The position numbers and the translations under genes were made by a program. 34,700 nucleotides of DNA, taken from assembly GCA_903929455.1 (NCBI GenBank), contig CAIYVA010000013.1, positions 1-34,700 of the forward strand, read 5' to 3'. The notes beneath the pieces are model-generated. The model did no database searches, was not told the origin of the DNA, and saw nothing but the letters and a program-made list of their open reading frames with translations. The stretch comes from an uncultured Pseudomonadota bacterium (GTDB lineage: Bacteria; Pseudomonadota; Gammaproteobacteria; Steroidobacterales; Steroidobacteraceae). Shown here piece after piece: positions 1,640 through 10,137 of this stretch (positions are counted from its first letter, which is position 1; each line of letters opens with the position of its first letter).

Positions 1640-2833
1640 ATGATCCATTCCCTGTTCCCGCCGACACGCGAAGTGGCACTCGAACGTCTGCGCGACTTCG
1701 TTCCGAGTGCCGGTTCCCACTACACCCAGGGTCGCAATACCGACGCGGGTCCCGATGCGCCATCCGCCACGTCGAGGCTCTCGCCGTATCTGCGACGACG
1801 GATGATCACCGAGGAAGAGATTATCTCTGCCGTATTGTCGGCGAACTCGTTGCAGGCGGCGGAGAAGTTTGTACAGGAGGTCTTGTGGCGCACCTACTGG
1901 AAGGGGTGGCTCGAACAGCGCCCCTCCGTCTGGGCTCGGTTTTTAGCAAGCCGCGATCGCGAATCCTTGGCCGACGCGACGGCCCTGGCCGATGCCGAAG
2001 AGGGTCGGACAGGTATCGATGGCTTTGATGACTGGGTCCGGGAGCTACGCGAGACTGGCTATCTGCACAACCACGCTCGGATGTGGTTCGCCTCGATCTG
2101 GATCTTCACGCTGCGCCTACCCTGGGCGCTCGGGGCGGATTTCTTCTTGCGGCACCTGATCGATGCAGATCCCGCGAGCAACACACTTTCGTGGCGGTGG
2201 GTGGCGGGGCTACAGACCGTCGGTAAGACCTATCTTGCGACTCAAGACAATATCGCCCGATATACCCAGGGACGCTATGTGCCCAGAGGGCTCGCGCGCG
2301 AGGCCATTGCCTTAACCGAAGCTCCGCTTGAACCGGCGCAGCCTTTGCGGGTGCTCACATCGCACGATCTCGCAACGCCGGCGCTGCTGCTCGTCACTGA
2401 CGAGGACATGTACCCAGATTTCTTGCTGACCGACCGACCGTCGATCCGTGCCGCAACGATCATCGTCGATCCGGATCTTTTATGGGGTGATGCTGCTCTG
2501 GCCTTTGCAGCATCAGCTGCCGACGATGTGGCTGTTCGCCTCCGAGGCGCGCTCGACGATCGGGTGACGGTGACTAGACGGCTTGATGCGCAGACCTTGA
2601 TCAACGCGGCCCACGCCTTCGGTGTGGACCGTATCGTCACGGCATACGCGCCGGTGGGTCCGGTAGCGGATCGACTGGCCGATGTCGCCACGGCGGTGGC
2701 GAAGGCGGGTATTGTCATCGAGTGGGTACGTCGCGACTGGGATACCCGTTTCTGGCCTCACGCGACCAAGGGGTTCTTTGCGTTCAAGGAGCGCATCCCG
2801 ACAATTCTTTTGCACAGGCACCGGCGTCTGTAG
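1640..2833 (+). CDS. Photolyase/cryptochrome-like FAD protein with permuted domain order (397 aa)
   Basis: Residues 40-215 match the helical FAD-binding half of DNA photolyases: TSRLSPYLRRRMITEEE (44-60), EKFVQEVLWRTYWKGW (75-90), TGYLHNHARMWFAS (139-152), and FFLRHLIDADPASN then WRWVAG (168-190). Canonical enzymes instead end this part with a FNP..Q..KFDP stretch; here it is TQDNIARYTQGRY (201-213). An alpha/beta part follows (about 237-385) that looks like the antenna domain normally found at the N-terminus: a strand VLTSHD, a nucleotide-fold pattern, FGVDRIVTAYAPVG, and WPHATKGFFAFKERIP near the end. The order is thus FAD half first, antenna half second. This fits a subgroup usually annotated 'FAD-binding domain-containing protein'. 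The protein may repair UV damage or sense blue light; activity is inferred. Start 1640 gives MIHSLFPPTR; the GTG at 1610 adds ten unlikely residues. The gene is alone on its strand. Confidence 0.85.
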   Translation: MIHSLFPPTREVALERLRDFVPSAGSHYTQGRNTDAGPDAPSATSRLSPYLRRRMITEEEIISAVLSANSLQAAEKFVQEVLWRTYWKGWLEQRPSVWARFLASRDRESLADATALADAEEGRTGIDGFDDWVRELRETGYLHNHARMWFASIWIFTLRLPWALGADFFLRHLIDADPASNTLSWRWVAGLQTVGKTYLATQDNIARYTQGRYVPRGLAREAIALTEAPLEPAQPLRVLTSHDLATPALLLVTDEDMYPDFLLTDRPSIRAATIIVDPDLLWGDAALAFAASAADDVAVRLRGALDDRVTVTRRLDAQTLINAAHAFGVDRIVTAYAPVGPVADRLADVATAVAKAGIVIEWVRRDWDTRFWPHATKGFFAFKERIPTILLHRHRRL

Positions 2834-3061: not shown

Positions 3062-3110
3062 ATCTACCGGCTATTTGAATGCCGCCAATTAGTGTTTGAA
3101 TGCCGGTAGA
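3062..3110. promoter_or_regulatory. Inverted and direct repeat, possible operator of the catabolic cluster
   Basis: CTACCGGC and GCCGGTAG flank two copies of TTTGAATGCCG with a period of 21 bases, two helical turns. That spacing and the position before the first enzyme gene suit a dimeric regulator, but no regulator gene lies nearby and no promoter boxes could be fixed. Confidence 0.35.
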
Positions 3111-3152
3111 GTGGGGACCCTGACCGGCTTTGATTCGTGGAGTGCCTGCAAG

Positions 3153-4184
3153 ATGAGTATTGATCCTCGTATTTCAGCTCCCGTCTTGCTGCGCTTTGGT
3201 ACCGCTGTGATGACGGCCGTAGGCTGCCGCCCAGCGATTGCGGCAGAAATCGCCGAGCATCTCGTCGAGGCGGATCTCGAAGGCGTGTACTCACATGGTG
3301 TATTCCGGCTGCATTGGTACGCAGAGCGCGCGGCTGCAGGGAAGTTTAATGCGGGCGCAGAGCCTGTTATGGCCACGGCGGAGGGCGGCGCACCGATCGT
3401 CGATGGCGGCAACGGATTGGGGATACCCGCTTTCCGATTGGCAACGGACCACTTGATCACAGAGGTAAAAACGAGCGGTGTGAGCGCGATAGGGATCGCT
3501 AATGTGGATCACACCGGACGGCTGGGTGTGTTTGCCAAGCGTGTCGCAGATGCCGGCTGCCTGGCCATTATGTTTGGCGGAGGCTGCCGTAAGGATTGGC
3601 GTCAGGTGGCTCCCCACGGAGGTGCGCGTGGCATGCTGCCCACCAATCCGTTTGCCTTTGGGATCCCCGGTGGCGCGCGCGGTTCAGTGGTTGTGGATTT
3701 CGCGACCAGTATCGGTGCAGGTGGCAAAGTGTATGCAGCAAAGATTGCAGGAAGACCGATTCCTGAGGGCATCTGCATCGATGCGCATGGTCGACCCACC
3801 ACCAATCCTGACGACTACTTCAATGGCGGCGCTTTATTACCGATGGCGGGCGCGAAAGGTTACGGGATGGCTTTGGTTGCTGAGCTGTTGGGCGAAGCCA
3901 TTTTGGGTGAGGTGATGGATGGCATGAATTGGATTGGTGTTGCAATTGACCTTTCACGATACCGCGCTCCGTCCGCGTACACTCGGGCGGCGGAAGCTTG
4001 CCTAGCTGAGTTACGCGCCTGCCCACCGGCCCCAGGCTTCACCTCAGTGGAGATCCCGGGAGAGCGGGAGGCCGCTTTGCGTGAGGTGCTGTTGGTTGAG
4101 GGCATACCGTTGCCGCCACAGACCTTAGCGGCGTTGCGCGACTTAGGGAAACAATTGGGCCTCTCTAGTGAGGATATGCTCTAG
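3153..4184 (+). CDS. Ldh-family NAD(P)-dependent 2-hydroxyacid dehydrogenase (343 aa)
   Basis: This is a member of the malate/L-lactate/ureidoglycolate dehydrogenase superfamily (YlbC/AllD/ComC type), which has its own fold distinct from classical lactate dehydrogenases. Visible family marks are YSHGVFRL with H48, NVDHTGRLG with H120, QVAPHGGARG with H155, LPTNPFAFGIPG (162-173), VVDFATS (180-186) and the C-terminal LPMAGAKGYGM with K235. It should reversibly oxidise a 2-hydroxyacid to a 2-oxoacid with NAD(P); the substrate is not readable. The ATG at 3153 has GGAG ten bases upstream and starts where family members start; a TTG at 3096 would extend into the inverted repeat. It is the first gene of a plus-strand run of five catabolic enzymes and fits as the source of the 2-oxoacid used by the decarboxylase at 7064. 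Confidence 0.9.
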   Translation: MSIDPRISAPVLLRFGTAVMTAVGCRPAIAAEIAEHLVEADLEGVYSHGVFRLHWYAERAAAGKFNAGAEPVMATAEGGAPIVDGGNGLGIPAFRLATDHLITEVKTSGVSAIGIANVDHTGRLGVFAKRVADAGCLAIMFGGGCRKDWRQVAPHGGARGMLPTNPFAFGIPGGARGSVVVDFATSIGAGGKVYAAKIAGRPIPEGICIDAHGRPTTNPDDYFNGGALLPMAGAKGYGMALVAELLGEAILGEVMDGMNWIGVAIDLSRYRAPSAYTRAAEACLAELRACPPAPGFTSVEIPGEREAALREVLLVEGIPLPPQTLAALRDLGKQLGLSSEDML

Positions 4185-4261
4185 TTTTTAGATTCGTGGC
4201 ACCCCCGGTTTGAATCAAGTACTCTTTTCGGGTAAGGGCGACTGATGGCACTTCAAAGATC

Positions 4262-5359
4262 ATGACATCCTTCACGATACTGGCGCTGGGCGGGGATGGC
4301 ATTGGGCCTGAGGTAGTGGCTTGCGGACTCAAATTGAGTGACGCTGTTGCCTCACAAGCGCAGATCCGATTGCACATTCAAGAAGACCTCTTACATGGCG
4401 CGGCCTGGCAGGCATACGGCACGTTTTGTCGCGATGAGACAGTCCGTGCCGCTCAAGCTGCTGATGCCGTCTTGGTGGGCGCGGTCGGTGGGCCACAATG
4501 GGATGGCATTCGAGTCGCCGGTGGGCCTGAGATGCAGGATGGCCTGATGCGACTGAGAAAGGCGCTCGATACCTATGCGGGTTTGCGACCTGCACGGGCT
4601 TGGCCTGCGCTCACAGCACTGACACCGTACAAGAGCACACTACTCACTGGCGCAGACGTGATGGTCTTGCGCGAACTCACCGGCGGGGCCTTCTTTTCTG
4701 AACCACGCGGCCACGACTTGCGCGCGGGAAAACGTTACGCGTTTGACACCACTGCTTACGATGAGAGTGAAATCGCTAGAATTGCGCACGTCGGATTTTC
4801 CTTGGCGCGCAGCCGCCGCGGGACACTTGTCTCTGCGGATAAAGCCAACGTCATGGAGTCTGGTATGTTGTGGCGACAGATTGTCAGCGAGGTGGGTCGA
4901 GACTATCCGGATGTGACCCTTCTGCATCTGTACGCTGATAATGTGGTCTACCAGTTGGCGCGCCGTCCGGCAGACTTCGATGTTATTTTGGGCGATAACT
5001 TATTCGGTGACATCCTCTCAGATCAGGCGGGCGCGATCGCAGGTTCGCTTGGTATGTTGCCGTCGGCGTGTCTACATGGTCTGCCGCAAGGTCGCGAGCG
5101 TCGACCGGGGATCTTTGAAGCAGTACATGGATCCGCGCCTGACATTGCCGGTAAAGGCATTGCCAATCCCTATGGGACACTGCTCTCTGTGGCACTCATG
5201 TTTGAATACGCATTCGGCCAACCACTGGAGGCTCGTCGCATTGAGGCGGCGGTCGCGACCGCGCTCGAAGGGGGCTGGCGCACACCGGACATCGGTGGAC
5301 ACCACTCGACGGTAGCGGTCACCGATGCCGTGATTGCAGCCTACCGAGTCATCGGATAG
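4262..5359 (+). CDS. Isopropylmalate/isocitrate-dehydrogenase-family enzyme, atypical (365 aa)
   Basis: The full-length fold of LeuB-type NAD-dependent beta-decarboxylating dehydrogenases is visible: LALGGDGIGPEVV (8-20), LRK with R99, GLRPA with R109, VLRELTGGAFFSEPRG with R137, DKANVMESGMLWR with K194, ADNVVY with D226, and GDNLFGDILSD with D250 and D254, then GSAPDIAGKGIANP (290-303). The three substrate arginines, lysine and metal aspartates are kept. The tyrosine of the TGG-x-Y-F motif, which serves as acid in LeuB, is F144 here, and the pocket glutamate of Thermus LeuB appears as Q92. Since it sits in a degradative cluster 77 bases after the Ldh-type gene rather than with leuA or leuCD, it probably acts on a different 2-hydroxy diacid, for example a tartrate, D-malate or 3-substituted malate. 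It could yet be a leucine-pathway enzyme if no other leuB exists. Confidence 0.85.
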   Translation: MTSFTILALGGDGIGPEVVACGLKLSDAVASQAQIRLHIQEDLLHGAAWQAYGTFCRDETVRAAQAADAVLVGAVGGPQWDGIRVAGGPEMQDGLMRLRKALDTYAGLRPARAWPALTALTPYKSTLLTGADVMVLRELTGGAFFSEPRGHDLRAGKRYAFDTTAYDESEIARIAHVGFSLARSRRGTLVSADKANVMESGMLWRQIVSEVGRDYPDVTLLHLYADNVVYQLARRPADFDVILGDNLFGDILSDQAGAIAGSLGMLPSACLHGLPQGRERRPGIFEAVHGSAPDIAGKGIANPYGTLLSVALMFEYAFGQPLEARRIEAAVATALEGGWRTPDIGGHHSTVAVTDAVIAAYRVIG

Positions 5360-5366
5360 ACCCGCG

Positions 5367-7067
5367 ATGAGCACCACAGAAGCTGTTTTCGACTATGTCG
5401 TCGTAGGTGGCGGATCCGCTGGTTGTGTCTTGGCCGCCCGTTTGGCTGAGCAGAAAGAGGTGCGTGTGCTGTTGCTGGAGGCGGGCGGTACTGGCCAGTC
5501 ACTGTTTATCGCCATGCCTGCGGGCAATGGCTACTTGTTTGGCAATCCGCGCTATGACTGGGGCTATCAGAGCGTGCCACAAGCGGGTCTGGATGGGAGG
5601 ACCGTCTTTTATCCGCGTGGCAAAGCCCTCGGCGGTTCTTCTATTTTAAATGGCATGGTGTACATCCGCGGCAATGCTCAGGATTTTGATCAATGGCGTG
5701 ACGCCGGCTTGTCCGGCTGGGGCTATGCTGATGTCTTGCCCTATTTTCTGCGTGCTGAAGGTGCCAAGGACAGACGCGATGCTTGGCACGGATCGAGCGG
5801 ACCGCTTAAGACCTGTGCCGCATCGAATTACCAGGCACTGGATCATCGCTTCGTTCAAGCCTCGACTCAGGCGGGTTTAGAGCTCAACGACGATTTCAAC
5901 GGCGCTCGTCAGATCGGGGTCGGGCGTCTTGACGTCACGGTTGCAGGTGGACGTCGCCAGACGACCGCGAGCGCGTATCTTGCGCAGCGCAGTGCCAATC
6001 TTGAAATCAGAACCCAGTCCGTGGTCACTTCCATCGACATCGATGCAGGCCGTGCCACTGGTGTGCGCGTGGCGACCCGCACCGGCGTAGAAAGCATTCG
6101 GGCCCGTCGAGAGGTGATTGTCTGTCTAGGCGCATTCGCCTCACCTCAGTTACTGATGCTGTCGGGCATCGGGCCTGCTGACCATCTGCGCCAGCATGGG
6201 ATTCCGGTCAAGGTCGACTTGCCGGGTGTGGGCAGTGGCTTGAAAGATCATATCAATGTGCCAGTTCAGTATCGTTGTCTAGATCCTCGTTTGTCATTTG
6301 CGCGATATCAGCGCCTTGATCGGGCTCTGTGGCTCGGTGCACGTTGGCTGTTGGCTCGTCGCGGCCCTGGTGCTGCACCGTTTTGGAGTGCCTGTGCATT
6401 TGACAGTCTGACCGGCAGTGATCGACCCGATTTGCAAATATTTTTCACGCCCATGGTGGTCAAGGAAGCGCGTGATGATGGTGACGTCGATGACAGTGGG
6501 CTGCTCGATCGATTGGGTCGTCGCATCTTGGTGCGTGGTTCAAAGAAAGCGGTCAGTGGCTTTCAACTCGATATCAATCAGATGCACCCCGAAAGCTATG
6601 GTGATGTCAGGCTCTCGTGCGCAGATCCCTTCGTTCATCCCATTATCAACCCGCGTTATTTCTCCCAGGACCGTGACCTGCAGCAACTCATTGCTGGGGT
6701 GCGTCGAGTGCGCGAGATCGTGTCGCAGCCGGCGTTTGCTGGCGTGCGCGGTAATGAGCTGTCACCTGGCCTCGCTGTACAGTCGGATGGTGACATTGCG
6801 GCGGCGATTCGGCGCGTGGCGCACAGCGGCCACCATCCCGTAGGCACCTGTCGCATGGGCGCACCGAACGATGGCTTGGCTGTATTGGATGACCAGCTAA
6901 GGGTGCGCGGCATTGCGGGTTTGCGCGTCTGCGATGCCTCCGCGTTCCCTGAACAGATTACCGGCAACCCGAATGCAACCATCATCATGATGGCAGAGAA
7001 AGCAGCCGATATGATCCACGGTCGGCCACCGCTGCCGTCTGTACACCCTCAAGGAGAACTCCAGTGA
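5367..7067 (+). CDS. GMC-family FAD-dependent alcohol oxidase/dehydrogenase (566 aa)
   Basis: The ADP-binding fold is DYVVVGGGSAGCVLAARL (9-26). GMC signature 1 is GKALGGSSILNGMVYIRG (85-102); signature 2 is GAFASPQLLMLSGIGP (255-270). The C-terminal domain has HHPVGTCRMG with catalytic H490, and CDASAFPEQITGNPNA with N536. Length fits the choline dehydrogenase/AlkJ/polyethylene-glycol dehydrogenase branch. There is no signal peptide, so it acts in the cytoplasm or on the inner membrane face, passing electrons to oxygen or quinone. It should oxidise a primary or secondary alcohol to an aldehyde or ketone. A charged stretch (about 366-394) interrupts the substrate domain and is unlike typical choline dehydrogenases. 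The ATG at 5367 is chosen over TTG 5334, which overlaps the preceding gene; no strong ribosome site is visible, so coupling to the gene seven bases upstream is likely. Confidence 0.9.
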   Translation: MSTTEAVFDYVVVGGGSAGCVLAARLAEQKEVRVLLLEAGGTGQSLFIAMPAGNGYLFGNPRYDWGYQSVPQAGLDGRTVFYPRGKALGGSSILNGMVYIRGNAQDFDQWRDAGLSGWGYADVLPYFLRAEGAKDRRDAWHGSSGPLKTCAASNYQALDHRFVQASTQAGLELNDDFNGARQIGVGRLDVTVAGGRRQTTASAYLAQRSANLEIRTQSVVTSIDIDAGRATGVRVATRTGVESIRARREVIVCLGAFASPQLLMLSGIGPADHLRQHGIPVKVDLPGVGSGLKDHINVPVQYRCLDPRLSFARYQRLDRALWLGARWLLARRGPGAAPFWSACAFDSLTGSDRPDLQIFFTPMVVKEARDDGDVDDSGLLDRLGRRILVRGSKKAVSGFQLDINQMHPESYGDVRLSCADPFVHPIINPRYFSQDRDLQQLIAGVRRVREIVSQPAFAGVRGNELSPGLAVQSDGDIAAAIRRVAHSGHHPVGTCRMGAPNDGLAVLDDQLRVRGIAGLRVCDASAFPEQITGNPNATIIMMAEKAADMIHGRPPLPSVHPQGELQ

Positions 7068-8668
7068 ACATCACAGCAGGTGAGGCCACCATGCGCCTCT
7101 TGGCCCACTATGGCGTCGATCGGGTCTACGGTGTGCCCGGCGTCCATACATTGGACTTTTGTCGCGGACTCGGATCGGATGCGGCCGTACGCCACATCCA
7201 AGCACGCAATGAGCAAGGTGCGGGTTTCATGGCTGAGGGGCATGCCCGAGCTACAGGCCTCCCTGGCGTCGCGCTGGTGATTTCCGGGCCCGGCGTTACC
7301 AATGCGGCGACTGCGCTTGGGCAGTGCTATGCAGACTCTCTGCCCATGCTATTGATATCAGCCGAACCGGTGGTCGGCAGCATCGGCAAAGGCTGGGGTG
7401 TGCTGCATGAAATTACTGAGCAGAAGGCAGTGACCGCGCCGCTGACGGCGTGGTCGGCGACTGCGTATCGCGCCGCCGATATTCCCGTGCTCCTCGCTCA
7501 GGCCTTTTCCTTGTTTGCCAGTGAGCGGCCCCGACCAGTACATATTTCTATTCCGATTGACGTGCAAGCGGAGCTGGTGGCGGATGACTGGAGCGCGGTT
7601 ATACCGCCGCCGCGTGCCGAAGGCTCCCGCCAACGCCTAGAAGAGGCGGCCCGTTGGTTACGCGCTGCAGAACGTCCACTCATCTTATGTGGTGGAGGTG
7701 CGGTTGGCGCTGCGGGGGATCTGCAGTCGATTGCCGAAGCCTTGGGCGCGTTGGTGATCGCTAGCACGGCAGGCAAGGGCATCGTGGCGGACGATCATCC
7801 CTTAAGTCTATCGGCCAGCACTGTCCGAGCGGAGACCCGCGCATACATTGCGCAGTCTGACTGCCTGCTTGCAGTCGGCACTGAATTATCCGAAACCGAT
7901 AGTTTTGTGGAACGACTCGAGATCACTGGACGCTTGATCCGGATCGACCTTGACCCTAAAAAGATGAACGACCTTTACCCCGCCGATCTAGCGATCGTCG
8001 GCGACGCTGGGCCTGCGATGGCAATACTGGCTGCATTGTTGTCCGATCATCAAAATCCTCTGGCTGCTGGCCAAGCGAAGGCGAGTGCCGCTGCTATCCG
8101 CCAGCGTATCTCCGACCACTTGTCTGCTTCCGAGAAAAAACATACGCGGTTGTTAATGGCGCTAAGAGCCTGTTGTCCAGCGGAGACGGTATTTTCCGGA
8201 GATGCTTGCCAACTGGTGTATACCGGCGCTTTCGCCATGCCGGTATTAAAGCCCCGGCAGTGGTTTTATCCTGCTGGTTATTGCGCGCTTGGCAATGGTC
8301 TTCCTAATGGCATTGGTGCCAAACTCGCCTTACCTGCTACACCTGTCGTGGTGCTCGCCGGCGATGGCGGCTTTATGTTCACGGTGCAAGAATTAATGAC
8401 AGCAGCTGAGCTTGATCTGCCGCTACCGATCATTATCTGGGAGAATGGCGGCCTCAAACAGATCCAAGATGATTTGGATGCCAGAGGCATCGAGAGGGTC
8501 GGCGTTGAAGGTGCCAACCCGGATTTCGAACTGCTGGCGCGCGCGTTTGGTTGTCACGCGGTTCGACCTGATAGCCTTGAGGCCTTCCAAGCGGCTGTCG
8601 TGAGTGCGTTCCAAAGTGACAAACCGACGGTTATTACTGTCCATGAAGAAGTGAAGTGGCTTGCATGA
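7064..8668 (+). CDS. Thiamine-diphosphate 2-oxoacid decarboxylase, AruI-like (534 aa)
   Basis: The N-terminal half has [15 protein letters not shown] (22-36) and [15 protein letters not shown], where E50 is the glutamate that activates the cofactor. The C-terminal half has the diphosphate motif starting GDGGF (433-437) and ending at ENGG with N461. Among acetolactate-synthase-like enzymes, the [11 protein letters not shown] segment resembles 5-guanidino-2-oxopentanoate decarboxylase (AruI), which precedes an aldehyde dehydrogenase in arginine breakdown. No aminotransferase like AruH is present here, so the oxoacid probably comes from the hydroxyacid dehydrogenase at 3153 instead. The start is a GTG with AAGGAG eight bases upstream, overlapping the GMC stop by four bases (GTGA). 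The likely product is an aldehyde handed to the next enzyme. An acetolactate-forming role is less likely, as no small subunit is seen. Confidence 0.88.
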
Positions 8669-10137
8669 AAACCTATCAATACTTTTGTGATGGTCAGTGG
8701 CGCGATCCGAGTTCAGGTCTTTGGTTCGAAAGCGACAATCCGACGCGAGGCGCGCCGTGGGCGCGCATTCCTCGGTGCAATGCTGAGGATGTCGAGGCAG
8801 CAGTGCAAGCGGCGCACCGCTGCTTTAGTACAGGCGCTTGGTCACGAACCAATGCGGCAGGGCGAGGTCGTCTGTTGCGTCGGATGGGGGATGTGGTCGT
8901 CCGTCATGCGGAGCAACTGGGTGCCATTGAAACGACCGATAACGGCAAACGCCGTAGTGACATCGTAGAGCCACTGAAGACGTGGCTGGCGGATAGTTTT
9001 TATTATTATGCTGGCCTCGCTGACAAAGTCGAGGGCGCGGTCATCCCTGTCGATGCGCCAGATCTTTTGAATTACACGCGTCGGGAACCTTATGGTGTGT
9101 GTGCTTGCATCACCGCTTGGAACTCGCCATTGCTCATTGCGATCTGGAAGATGGCCCCCGCGTTAGCGGCGGGCAATACCCTGGTGCTTAAGCCCTCCGA
9201 GCATGCGTCGGCTTCCACCTTGGCCCTGATGGAGGTCTTAGCCGAAGCTGACTTACCACCGGGTCTTGTGAACGTGGTTACCGGCTTTGGCCCCGAGGCA
9301 GGTGCCGCTTTAGTGGATCATCCTCTTGTGAGACTGTTGAGCTTCACCGGCGGATTCACTGGTGGCAGTCATGTGGCCGCTGCGGCTGGCCGGCAAGCGA
9401 AGCCAGTCATTATGGAACTTGGCGGCAAATCGCCGCAGATCGTATTTAGAGATGCTGACCTGGAGCTTGCCGTGCATGGTGTGGCGAGTGGCATCTTTCC
9501 ACCCAGTGGGCAAAGTTGTATTTCCGGTTCCCGGGCGATTGTGCATCGCAGCTTGTACGATCAGTTCGTTCGCTCCCTCTGTGAGGTTGCGGGCAGAGCT
9601 CGGTTGGGTGATCCCGCTGATCCCATGACGCAGGTACCGCCGATCGCTAATCGGTCCCACTTCGATCGAGTGCTACAGGCCATCGAGACGGCCAAAAAGG
9701 AGGGTGCACATTGCGTGCTCGGCGGAGTACCTACGCACCTACCGGAACTCGGTGGTTGGTTTATAGGTCCGACCGTGTTTACCAACGTTACGCCACAGAT
9801 GCAGATCATGCGGGAAGAAATCTTTGGACCCGTCATTGCTGTGTTGCCCTTCGATGATGACGAAGAGGCCATTCGCTTGGCCAACGACACCGACTATGGT
9901 TTAGCTGCCGGCTTATGGACCGCGGACACCGCGCGTGCCATTGGATTCGCTGATCGTATTCAGGCGGGGACGGTCTATATCAACAATTACTACAATGCGA
10001 CTACTCAATCACCGGTCGGTGGTTTCAAACGATCTGGCTATGGGCGGGAAAATGGGCTGGAGGGGATGCTGGCGTACCTGCAAACCAAGTCGATTTGGGT
10101 GTCAACTGCCCCTCATCAGCCGAATCCATTCCCCTAG
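8665..10137 (+). CDS. NAD(P)-dependent aldehyde dehydrogenase (490 aa)
   Basis: A complete class-type aldehyde dehydrogenase: ITAWNSPL with N153, LKPSEHAS with K176, the nucleotide-fold SFTGGFTGG (226-234), MELGGKSPQ with base E251, and SGQSC with nucleophile C285. REEIFGPVIAV and GYGRENGLEGM follow near the C-terminus. It oxidises an aldehyde to the acid in the cytoplasm. The ATG overlaps the stop of the decarboxylase (ATGA), which argues for direct co-translation and for its using that enzyme's product, as KauB does after AruI. It might also take the aldehyde made by the GMC enzyme. It ends in convergent overlap with the transporter gene: the CTAG at 10134-10137 contains both stop codons. 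In the common SFTGG-S-xx-TG pattern the serine is missing (SFTGGFTGG), a mild deviation. Confidence 0.92.
   Translation: MKTYQYFCDGQWRDPSSGLWFESDNPTRGAPWARIPRCNAEDVEAAVQAAHRCFSTGAWSRTNAAGRGRLLRRMGDVVVRHAEQLGAIETTDNGKRRSDIVEPLKTWLADSFYYYAGLADKVEGAVIPVDAPDLLNYTRREPYGVCACITAWNSPLLIAIWKMAPALAAGNTLVLKPSEHASASTLALMEVLAEADLPPGLVNVVTGFGPEAGAALVDHPLVRLLSFTGGFTGGSHVAAAAGRQAKPVIMELGGKSPQIVFRDADLELAVHGVASGIFPPSGQSCISGSRAIVHRSLYDQFVRSLCEVAGRARLGDPADPMTQVPPIANRSHFDRVLQAIETAKKEGAHCVLGGVPTHLPELGGWFIGPTVFTNVTPQMQIMREEIFGPVIAVLPFDDDEEAIRLANDTDYGLAAGLWTADTARAIGFADRIQAGTVYINNYYNATTQSPVGGFKRSGYGRENGLEGMLAYLQTKSIWVSTAPHQPNPFP

Follow-up and report, generated by a model that had tools for sequence, protein, structure and literature searches.

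We analyzed a window of 34,700 nt (assembly GCA_903929455.1, contig CAIYVA010000013.1, positions 1 to 34,700) from an uncultured Steroidobacteraceae bacterium of the phylum Pseudomonadota, focusing on a gene for a photolyase-like protein (Table 1). Sequence comparison and structural models suggest, with a probability of about 0.82, that it encodes a NewPHL-type photolyase in which a diverged antenna domain has been relocated behind the flavin adenine dinucleotide (FAD) lobe. The original account of NewPHL is reportedly that of Emmerich et al. 2020, and short photolyase-like (SPL) proteins are said to go back to Xu et al. 2021. The reversed layout is already in print: the available portions of three papers describe NewPHL (PMC9426592, PMC13274461, PMC8948257), and one of them also treats Phr4/Phr5 and Phr6 of marine Synechococcus and Cyanobium as reversed photolyases (PMC9426592). 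The protein adds one more NewPHL.

The swapped domain order proposed in the original prediction was borne out by Pfam and by modeling, with the FAD lobe at the N terminus and a five-stranded alpha/beta domain at the C terminus. PF03441 (FAD_binding_7) was the only Pfam match (residues 77–198, E = 7.7e-22, profile positions 1–126 of 203), and a PDB sequence search aligned residues 6–198 with residues 200–395 of Escherichia coli photolyase (E = 8.3e-19). No antenna domain precedes the FAD lobe, which sets the protein apart from the class I and class III photolyase order. A canonical antenna domain in a missed upstream frame, raised beforehand as an explanation that would speak against a swap, was not found: profiles of antenna domains and of SPL-like sequences (named here by layout and not matched to published SPL or Phr proteins) produced no hit at E = 1 when run against 848 six-frame stretches from the whole window. 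The source genome contains one other PF03441 match, a 525-amino-acid frame on contig C25, where the antenna domain precedes the FAD domain.

Table 1 Coordinates of the candidate NewPHL-type photolyase gene and of its parts in the window
Feature	Position	Strand	Basis and remarks
Whole gene, 397 amino acids, probable NewPHL-type photolyase	1640..2833	+	Open reading frame (ORF), Pfam, homologue alignment; start candidates ATG 1640 or GTG 1610
N-terminal FAD/catalytic lobe, residues 1-215	1640..2284	+	Pfam, model superposed on photolyase FAD lobe
Segment KTYLATQDNIARYTQGRYVPRG, residues 196-217, replacing classical FNP..Q..FDP	2225..2290	+	Sequence comparison
Linker, residues 218-245, poorly conserved	2291..2374	+	Alignment, model
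C-terminal alpha/beta (antenna-like) domain, residues 246-397	2375..2830	+	Models, structure comparison, profile alignment
Conserved motif FWPHATKGFFAFKERIP, residues 371-387	2750..2800	+	Likened by position and eye to antenna-closing PF.VFTPFW

A scan of public genomes yielded at least 595 matching stretches and at least 591 relatives, and the results rest on the best 80 loci. One unbroken frame of 384–427 amino acids was present in 77 of these, the exceptions being one locus cut by a contig end (L054) and two broken as read (L077 and L099). The alignment termed A2 comprised 61 rows, namely the window protein and, aligned over their full length, 60 of the best 80 loci; the 20 omitted loci were these three exceptions and 17 that were picked by eye, with no identity cut-off applied, to thin the set. 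Within A2, conservation is strong in the FAD lobe and lower in the second half, where YAPVGP and WPHAT.GFF stand out as clear motifs. Identical in all 61 rows are the equivalents of E. coli Y222, E274, W277, R278, N341, R344, M345, W359, D372, D374, N378, W382 and W384 (numbering taken from the alignment of the window protein with E. coli photolyase). We take these thirteen positions to be residues for FAD, the cyclobutane pyrimidine dimer (CPD) or the electron chain. W162 and W185 occur in every row, whereas the classical chain's third tryptophan has no conserved counterpart: 17 of 61 rows have a W at some position within residues 99–122. No row has more than one cysteine in residues 195–235, and an iron–sulfur (Fe–S) cysteine cluster is thus absent. 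The tryptophan dyad fits NewPHL, since the available text on the D. shibae protein likewise speaks of a ‘mere Trp dyad’ (PMC8948257), and the lack of Fe–S cysteines fits what is accessible of the description of Phr7 as a protein without them (PMC9426592). Together, the invariant positions and the two tryptophans suggest binding of FAD and of a CPD, with photoreduction via two tryptophans.

The two arrangements diverge directly after the FAD core. Following W-R-W, the window protein reads KTYLATQDNIARYTQGRYVPRG and enters the linker, and the classical photolyase of the source genome reads APYYRIFNPILQAERFDP and continues. The original claim of an altered stretch at the FNP..Q..KFDP position thus stands insofar as the one segment occupies the place of the other. 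The accompanying idea of a clean circular permutation was not borne out, and a strict one was rejected, because the end of the FAD lobe is missing: the unmatched end of PF03441 makes up over one-third of that profile. A literature search on circular permutation in photolyases returned, by title or start of the abstract, no work on photolyase layout, and the term ‘inverted topology’ gave nothing related. Of the 27 SPL-like rows caught by the filter, 26 have K.Y..N..N..RY or a similar sequence followed by a C-x2-C...C cluster; SPL-like proteins are often encoded by two genes, whereas the window protein is a single chain with the same K.Y..N..N..RY layout but without the cysteine cluster after the FAD core that marks Fe–S-type SPL proteins. 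This shared arrangement makes the NewPHL layout look like the SPL-like layout minus the cluster. Three further loci (L014, L015 and L202) form a FAD-first group that reads KPYLFN..NV.RYAP and also lacks the cysteine cluster; the C-terminal part of L015 has no Pfam family match.

Structure prediction, the check originally suggested, matched both halves best to photolyases. The full-length AlphaFold2 model had a mean predicted local distance difference test score (pLDDT) of 95.3 and a predicted template modeling score of 0.92. Residues 1–224 superposed on the photolyase FAD lobe in VIA-align (1iqr, Z 16.1, root-mean-square deviation (rmsd) 2.7, 212 aligned), and the 50 best rows listed by Foldseek for this model were all photolyases or cryptochromes. 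No NewPHL structure was named among these 50 or the 50 best rows listed by VIA-align. The last 174 residues modeled alone (60 rows, with L092 left out) reached a pLDDT of 92.2. In the model, the second half consists of five strands alternating with helices, with FWPHATKGFFAFKERIP near the end; the tail forms short helices in the full model and one long helix (residues 378–394) in the domain model. For the C-terminal domain, Foldseek placed cryptochromes best (E = 2.2e-4, in a table without ranges) and the universal stress protein (USP) 3tnj at rank 12 (E = 1.1e-3). In VIA-align, rows 1–13 were photolyases or cryptochromes (143–152 residues, rmsd 3.5–4.4). The best match was 1iqr (Z 11.8, rmsd 3.5, 145 aligned), for which the alignment spans chain residues 2 to 232 and extends beyond the antenna domain into the 1iqr FAD lobe. 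The best other fold was a USP (Z 9.8, 108 aligned); single USPs listed align over 108–117 residues and tandem ones over 139–145 only at rmsd 9.5–9.6. As rows within 1 of each other count as tied, the photolyase lead rests on 1iqr, 6kii (11.1) and aligned length. A best superposition on an unrelated Rossmann fold, the other outcome named in advance as adverse, did not come true, with photolyases topping the VIA-align comparison.

Profile comparisons used hhalign, whose E-values refer to one comparison. The C-terminal domain (61 rows) matched 18 classical antenna domains weakly (14 and 23%) and nearly in register. It also aligned nearly in register with larger sets: 41 antenna domains gave 62.7%, with a score of 33.2 over 81 columns (47.9% in the other direction), and 24 SPL-like C-terminal domains gave 79.0%, with a score of 37.5 over 102 columns (88.4% in the other direction). 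The value for 29 USPs, from 30 fetched loci of which one with a stop was omitted, was 9.1% (16.9% in the other direction; score 23.0). All 300 column shuffles scored below the real alignment, peaking at 22.7 for antenna, 25.1 for SPL-like and 20.3 for USP, so that the USP score likewise lies above all its own shuffles; the reversed profile scored at most 15.8. SPL-like C-terminal domains matched antenna domains at 97.9% over 132 columns (E = 5e-13). Antenna domains and USPs matched at 67–69%, and SPL-like domains and USPs at 66–71%; such mutual matches would fit one fold class. PF00875 matched one of the 61 A2 members (E = 0.014, place within the protein not given) and, at 0.001 and short of the family cut-off, L115 from Deinococcus. 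BLH_phosphatase matches occurred in five of the 61 A2 members (best 0.00036). The models and profiles make it likely that the antenna domain was relocated to follow the FAD lobe. The earlier view of an antenna-like second half is supported by fold and profile alignment but not by single-sequence matches. The WPHATKGFFAFKERIP tail resembles, by position and eye, the stretch that closes the antenna domain; the profile alignment of the window's domain ends before this tail.

Compared with known systems, the protein resembles NewPHL in having the catalytic FAD lobe first and the second domain C-terminal, a tryptophan dyad, CPD-type residues and no Fe–S cysteines; by published description, no difference was found in these features. 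An FAD lobe followed by an antenna domain is also common to Phr4/Phr5 (if made as one protein), Phr6 and SPL. Class I CPD photolyases (E. coli 1dnp and Thermus thermophilus 1iqr) share the FAD lobe fold and active-site residues but have an N-terminal antenna domain, FNP..Q..FDP and a further C-terminal segment that the window protein lacks. A quick tree of the FAD lobe was built from 102 rows, of which 31 came from the 61 rows of A2, 36 were SPL-like, 21 were classical and 14 were neighbor genes. In it, the window row fell within the group of 31 NewPHL-labeled rows (Shimodaira–Hasegawa-like approximate likelihood ratio test, 99). NewPHL and SPL-like rows were not joined in the free tree; a tree constrained to join them was 9.0 log units higher and was not rejected (approximately unbiased test, P = 0.72), and long branches meet in this phylogeny. 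A single origin of the reversed order would thus be allowed by the sequences, not shown.

Its residues and the analogy with characterized NewPHL make light-driven CPD repair the most likely function of the protein, and single-stranded DNA would probably be the preferred substrate. From the invariant residues, the N-terminal lobe would bind FAD and a flipped-out CPD, and blue light would drive an electron from reduced FAD to the dimer, which would then be split. The C-terminal domain would be a relocated, diverged antenna (HUP-fold) domain that seals the FAD site instead of holding a pigment, the role that the published account of NewPHL reportedly assigns to its second domain. The analysis establishes the domain order, the predicted fold, the conservation and the grouping, and from these we infer the cofactor, the substrate, the packing of the second domain and the lack of an antenna pigment. 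Several points weigh against the identification. The NewPHL label is set by layout, residues and relatives from the same bacterial families, and the D. shibae and M. mesophilicum proteins (PMC13274461 gives the UniProt accessions A8LJA9 and M7YZC8) were compared by description only. All 61 rows have H at the position of E. coli R342, and the residue corresponding to R236 is variable. Run on single sequences, the antenna profile matched none of the 61 at 0.01, four at 0.1 and 12 at 1 (shuffled sequences, 0 at each), and the window protein has no PF00875 match at E = 10 and does not reach the family cut-off.

The ties of several photolyase rows with USPs in the VIA-align comparison of the C-terminal domain, the Z of 9.8 that puts USPs next in that comparison, the Foldseek rank of 3tnj and the nonsignificant single-sequence similarity to antenna domains would also suit an unrelated HUP/Rossmann-like domain, for example of USP type, fused to a truncated FAD lobe with no antenna moved. 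This reading is quite unlikely and was set aside for its weaker scores: photolyases and cryptochromes fill rows 1–13 with longer alignments than single USPs, the hhalign score for USPs (23.0, 9%) compares with 33.2 for antenna and 37.5 for SPL-like domains, and SPL-like C-terminal domains form a bridge to antenna domains at 97.9%. If the domain is a displaced antenna, it might still bind a pigment (8-hydroxydeazaflavin, methenyltetrahydrofolate or 6,7-dimethyl-8-ribityllumazine) and pass energy to FAD, as its fold and the conservation of YAPVGP and WPHAT.GFF amid a variable domain could suggest; however, either motif could just as well serve packing onto the FAD lobe, and the sealing role that the published NewPHL account reportedly gives the domain also renders this unlikely. 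A blue-light receptor of cryptochrome-like function and NewPHL ancestry, having lost DNA repair, would accord with the classical photolyase on contig C25 and with the many photolyase relatives that became receptors. We regard this as very unlikely given the identity of the thirteen FAD, CPD or electron-chain positions in all 61 rows and the presence of another photolyase-type gene within the fetched flanks of 22 of 82 loci, which hints at repair.

Nearly full-length matches occurred in ten of 60 relatives’ genomes (G009, G002, G034, G043, G052, G040, G035, G044, G056 and G057) at 46–83% identity. Any match was found in 42 of the 60, those beyond the ten comprising the FAD lobe alone. Given the nearly full-length matches in these ten genomes and the unbroken frames in 77 of the best 80 loci, the reading frame is not a chance ORF. 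The C-terminal domain was detected in 37 of 296 genomes of the order, source genome included; a search for a stand-alone version among these yielded a single short frame (G373) 19 bases from a contig end, where the gene is probably cut. No close relatives were found on viral contigs. Relatives from Roseobacteraceae (for example, Ruegeria and Tateyamaria) align at 46–50%. In 199 genomes drawn from the phylum, the eight other full-length matches were all ‘same phylum’ and none ‘same class’, and the named tree rows nearest to the window protein belong to Sphingomonadales, Rhodospirillaceae and Rhizobiales. Sequence relatives outside its own class provide hints of horizontal transfer.

The split SPL-like enzymes were surveyed in 146 cyanobacterial genomes with the Deinococcus protein L115 as query. 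The FAD half was present in 25 genomes (E = 1e-34 or better). The antenna half was a separate ORF in the same 3.7–4.2-kb locus in 14 of these and lay elsewhere in ten, ~2 kb off in G758 and G810 and far away or on other contigs in the others; the remaining genome, G762, carries the fused divergent form L202 without an antenna-half match. Both halves thus occurred in 24 genomes, the FAD half only in one, the antenna half only in none and neither in 121 (Fisher, P = 1.3e-26, kinship not corrected). This co-occurrence supports a two-part enzyme, as the available text of one report already suggests for adjacent phr4/phr5 (PMC9426592). The cyanobacterial loci of this survey are L178–L202 and L233–L243. 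Both halves are annotated as two genes with a 4-base overlap on a plasmid of Deinococcus sp. QL22 (L161:2836-4127) and are fused in one gene on plasmids of Deinococcus psychrotolerans and D. wulumuqiensis. Locus L126 (G075:C1 near 4066476), from a genome of the window’s phylum, has consecutive SPL-like halves on the same strand in different frames.

Accessible parts of the literature describe SPL proteins as devoid of the alpha/beta domain (PMC9649867) and as possible ancestors of the cryptochrome/photolyase family (PMC9649867, PMC9498864). In the SPL-like rows examined, an alpha/beta domain was present, either fused C-terminally or as a separate gene. The second half of the window protein, best read via SPL-like intermediates as a displaced antenna domain, bears on the SPL claims as far as the available texts make them (PMC9649867, PMC9498864). 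We tentatively suggest, at slightly under even odds, that SPL and NewPHL, rather than being antenna-less forms near the root of the family, all stem from one rearrangement that put the antenna behind the FAD lobe, and that many cyanobacteria have an obligate two-gene enzyme, sometimes unlinked. If true, the case for SPL as ancestor of all photolyases and cryptochromes would lose its main architectural argument.

The comparison of gene neighborhoods covered the window, L004, L005 and 79 of the returned loci, 82 in all, with flanks of unequal length. A second photolyase lay in the fetched flank of 18 loci (PF00875 followed by PF03441 in the single example scanned) and a PF04244 relative (one example scanned) in that of 12, so that 22 loci had either neighbor. 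It is possible that the NewPHL gene lies within a photorepair cluster. Loci with such a neighbor include L033, L035, L045, L047, L048, L058, L065, L067, L084, L093, L094 and L109. Of three annotated plasmid records that carry the gene, those of Ruegeria and Asticcacaulis have a UbiB-type kinase gene near it, and those of Novosphingobium and Asticcacaulis have a DUF3429 gene. A sigma-70 promoter scan found none, with 0.8 expected by chance. The window neighbors scanned contained no photolyase; upstream lies a DUF6632 gene, and downstream are five genes for oxidoreductases or thiamine pyrophosphate (TPP) enzymes. A same-strand run at 3096–10137, some of its genes with overlapping ends, encodes Ldh_2, an isopropylmalate-type dehydrogenase, a GMC oxidoreductase, a TPP enzyme and an aldehyde dehydrogenase and looks like a catabolic operon.
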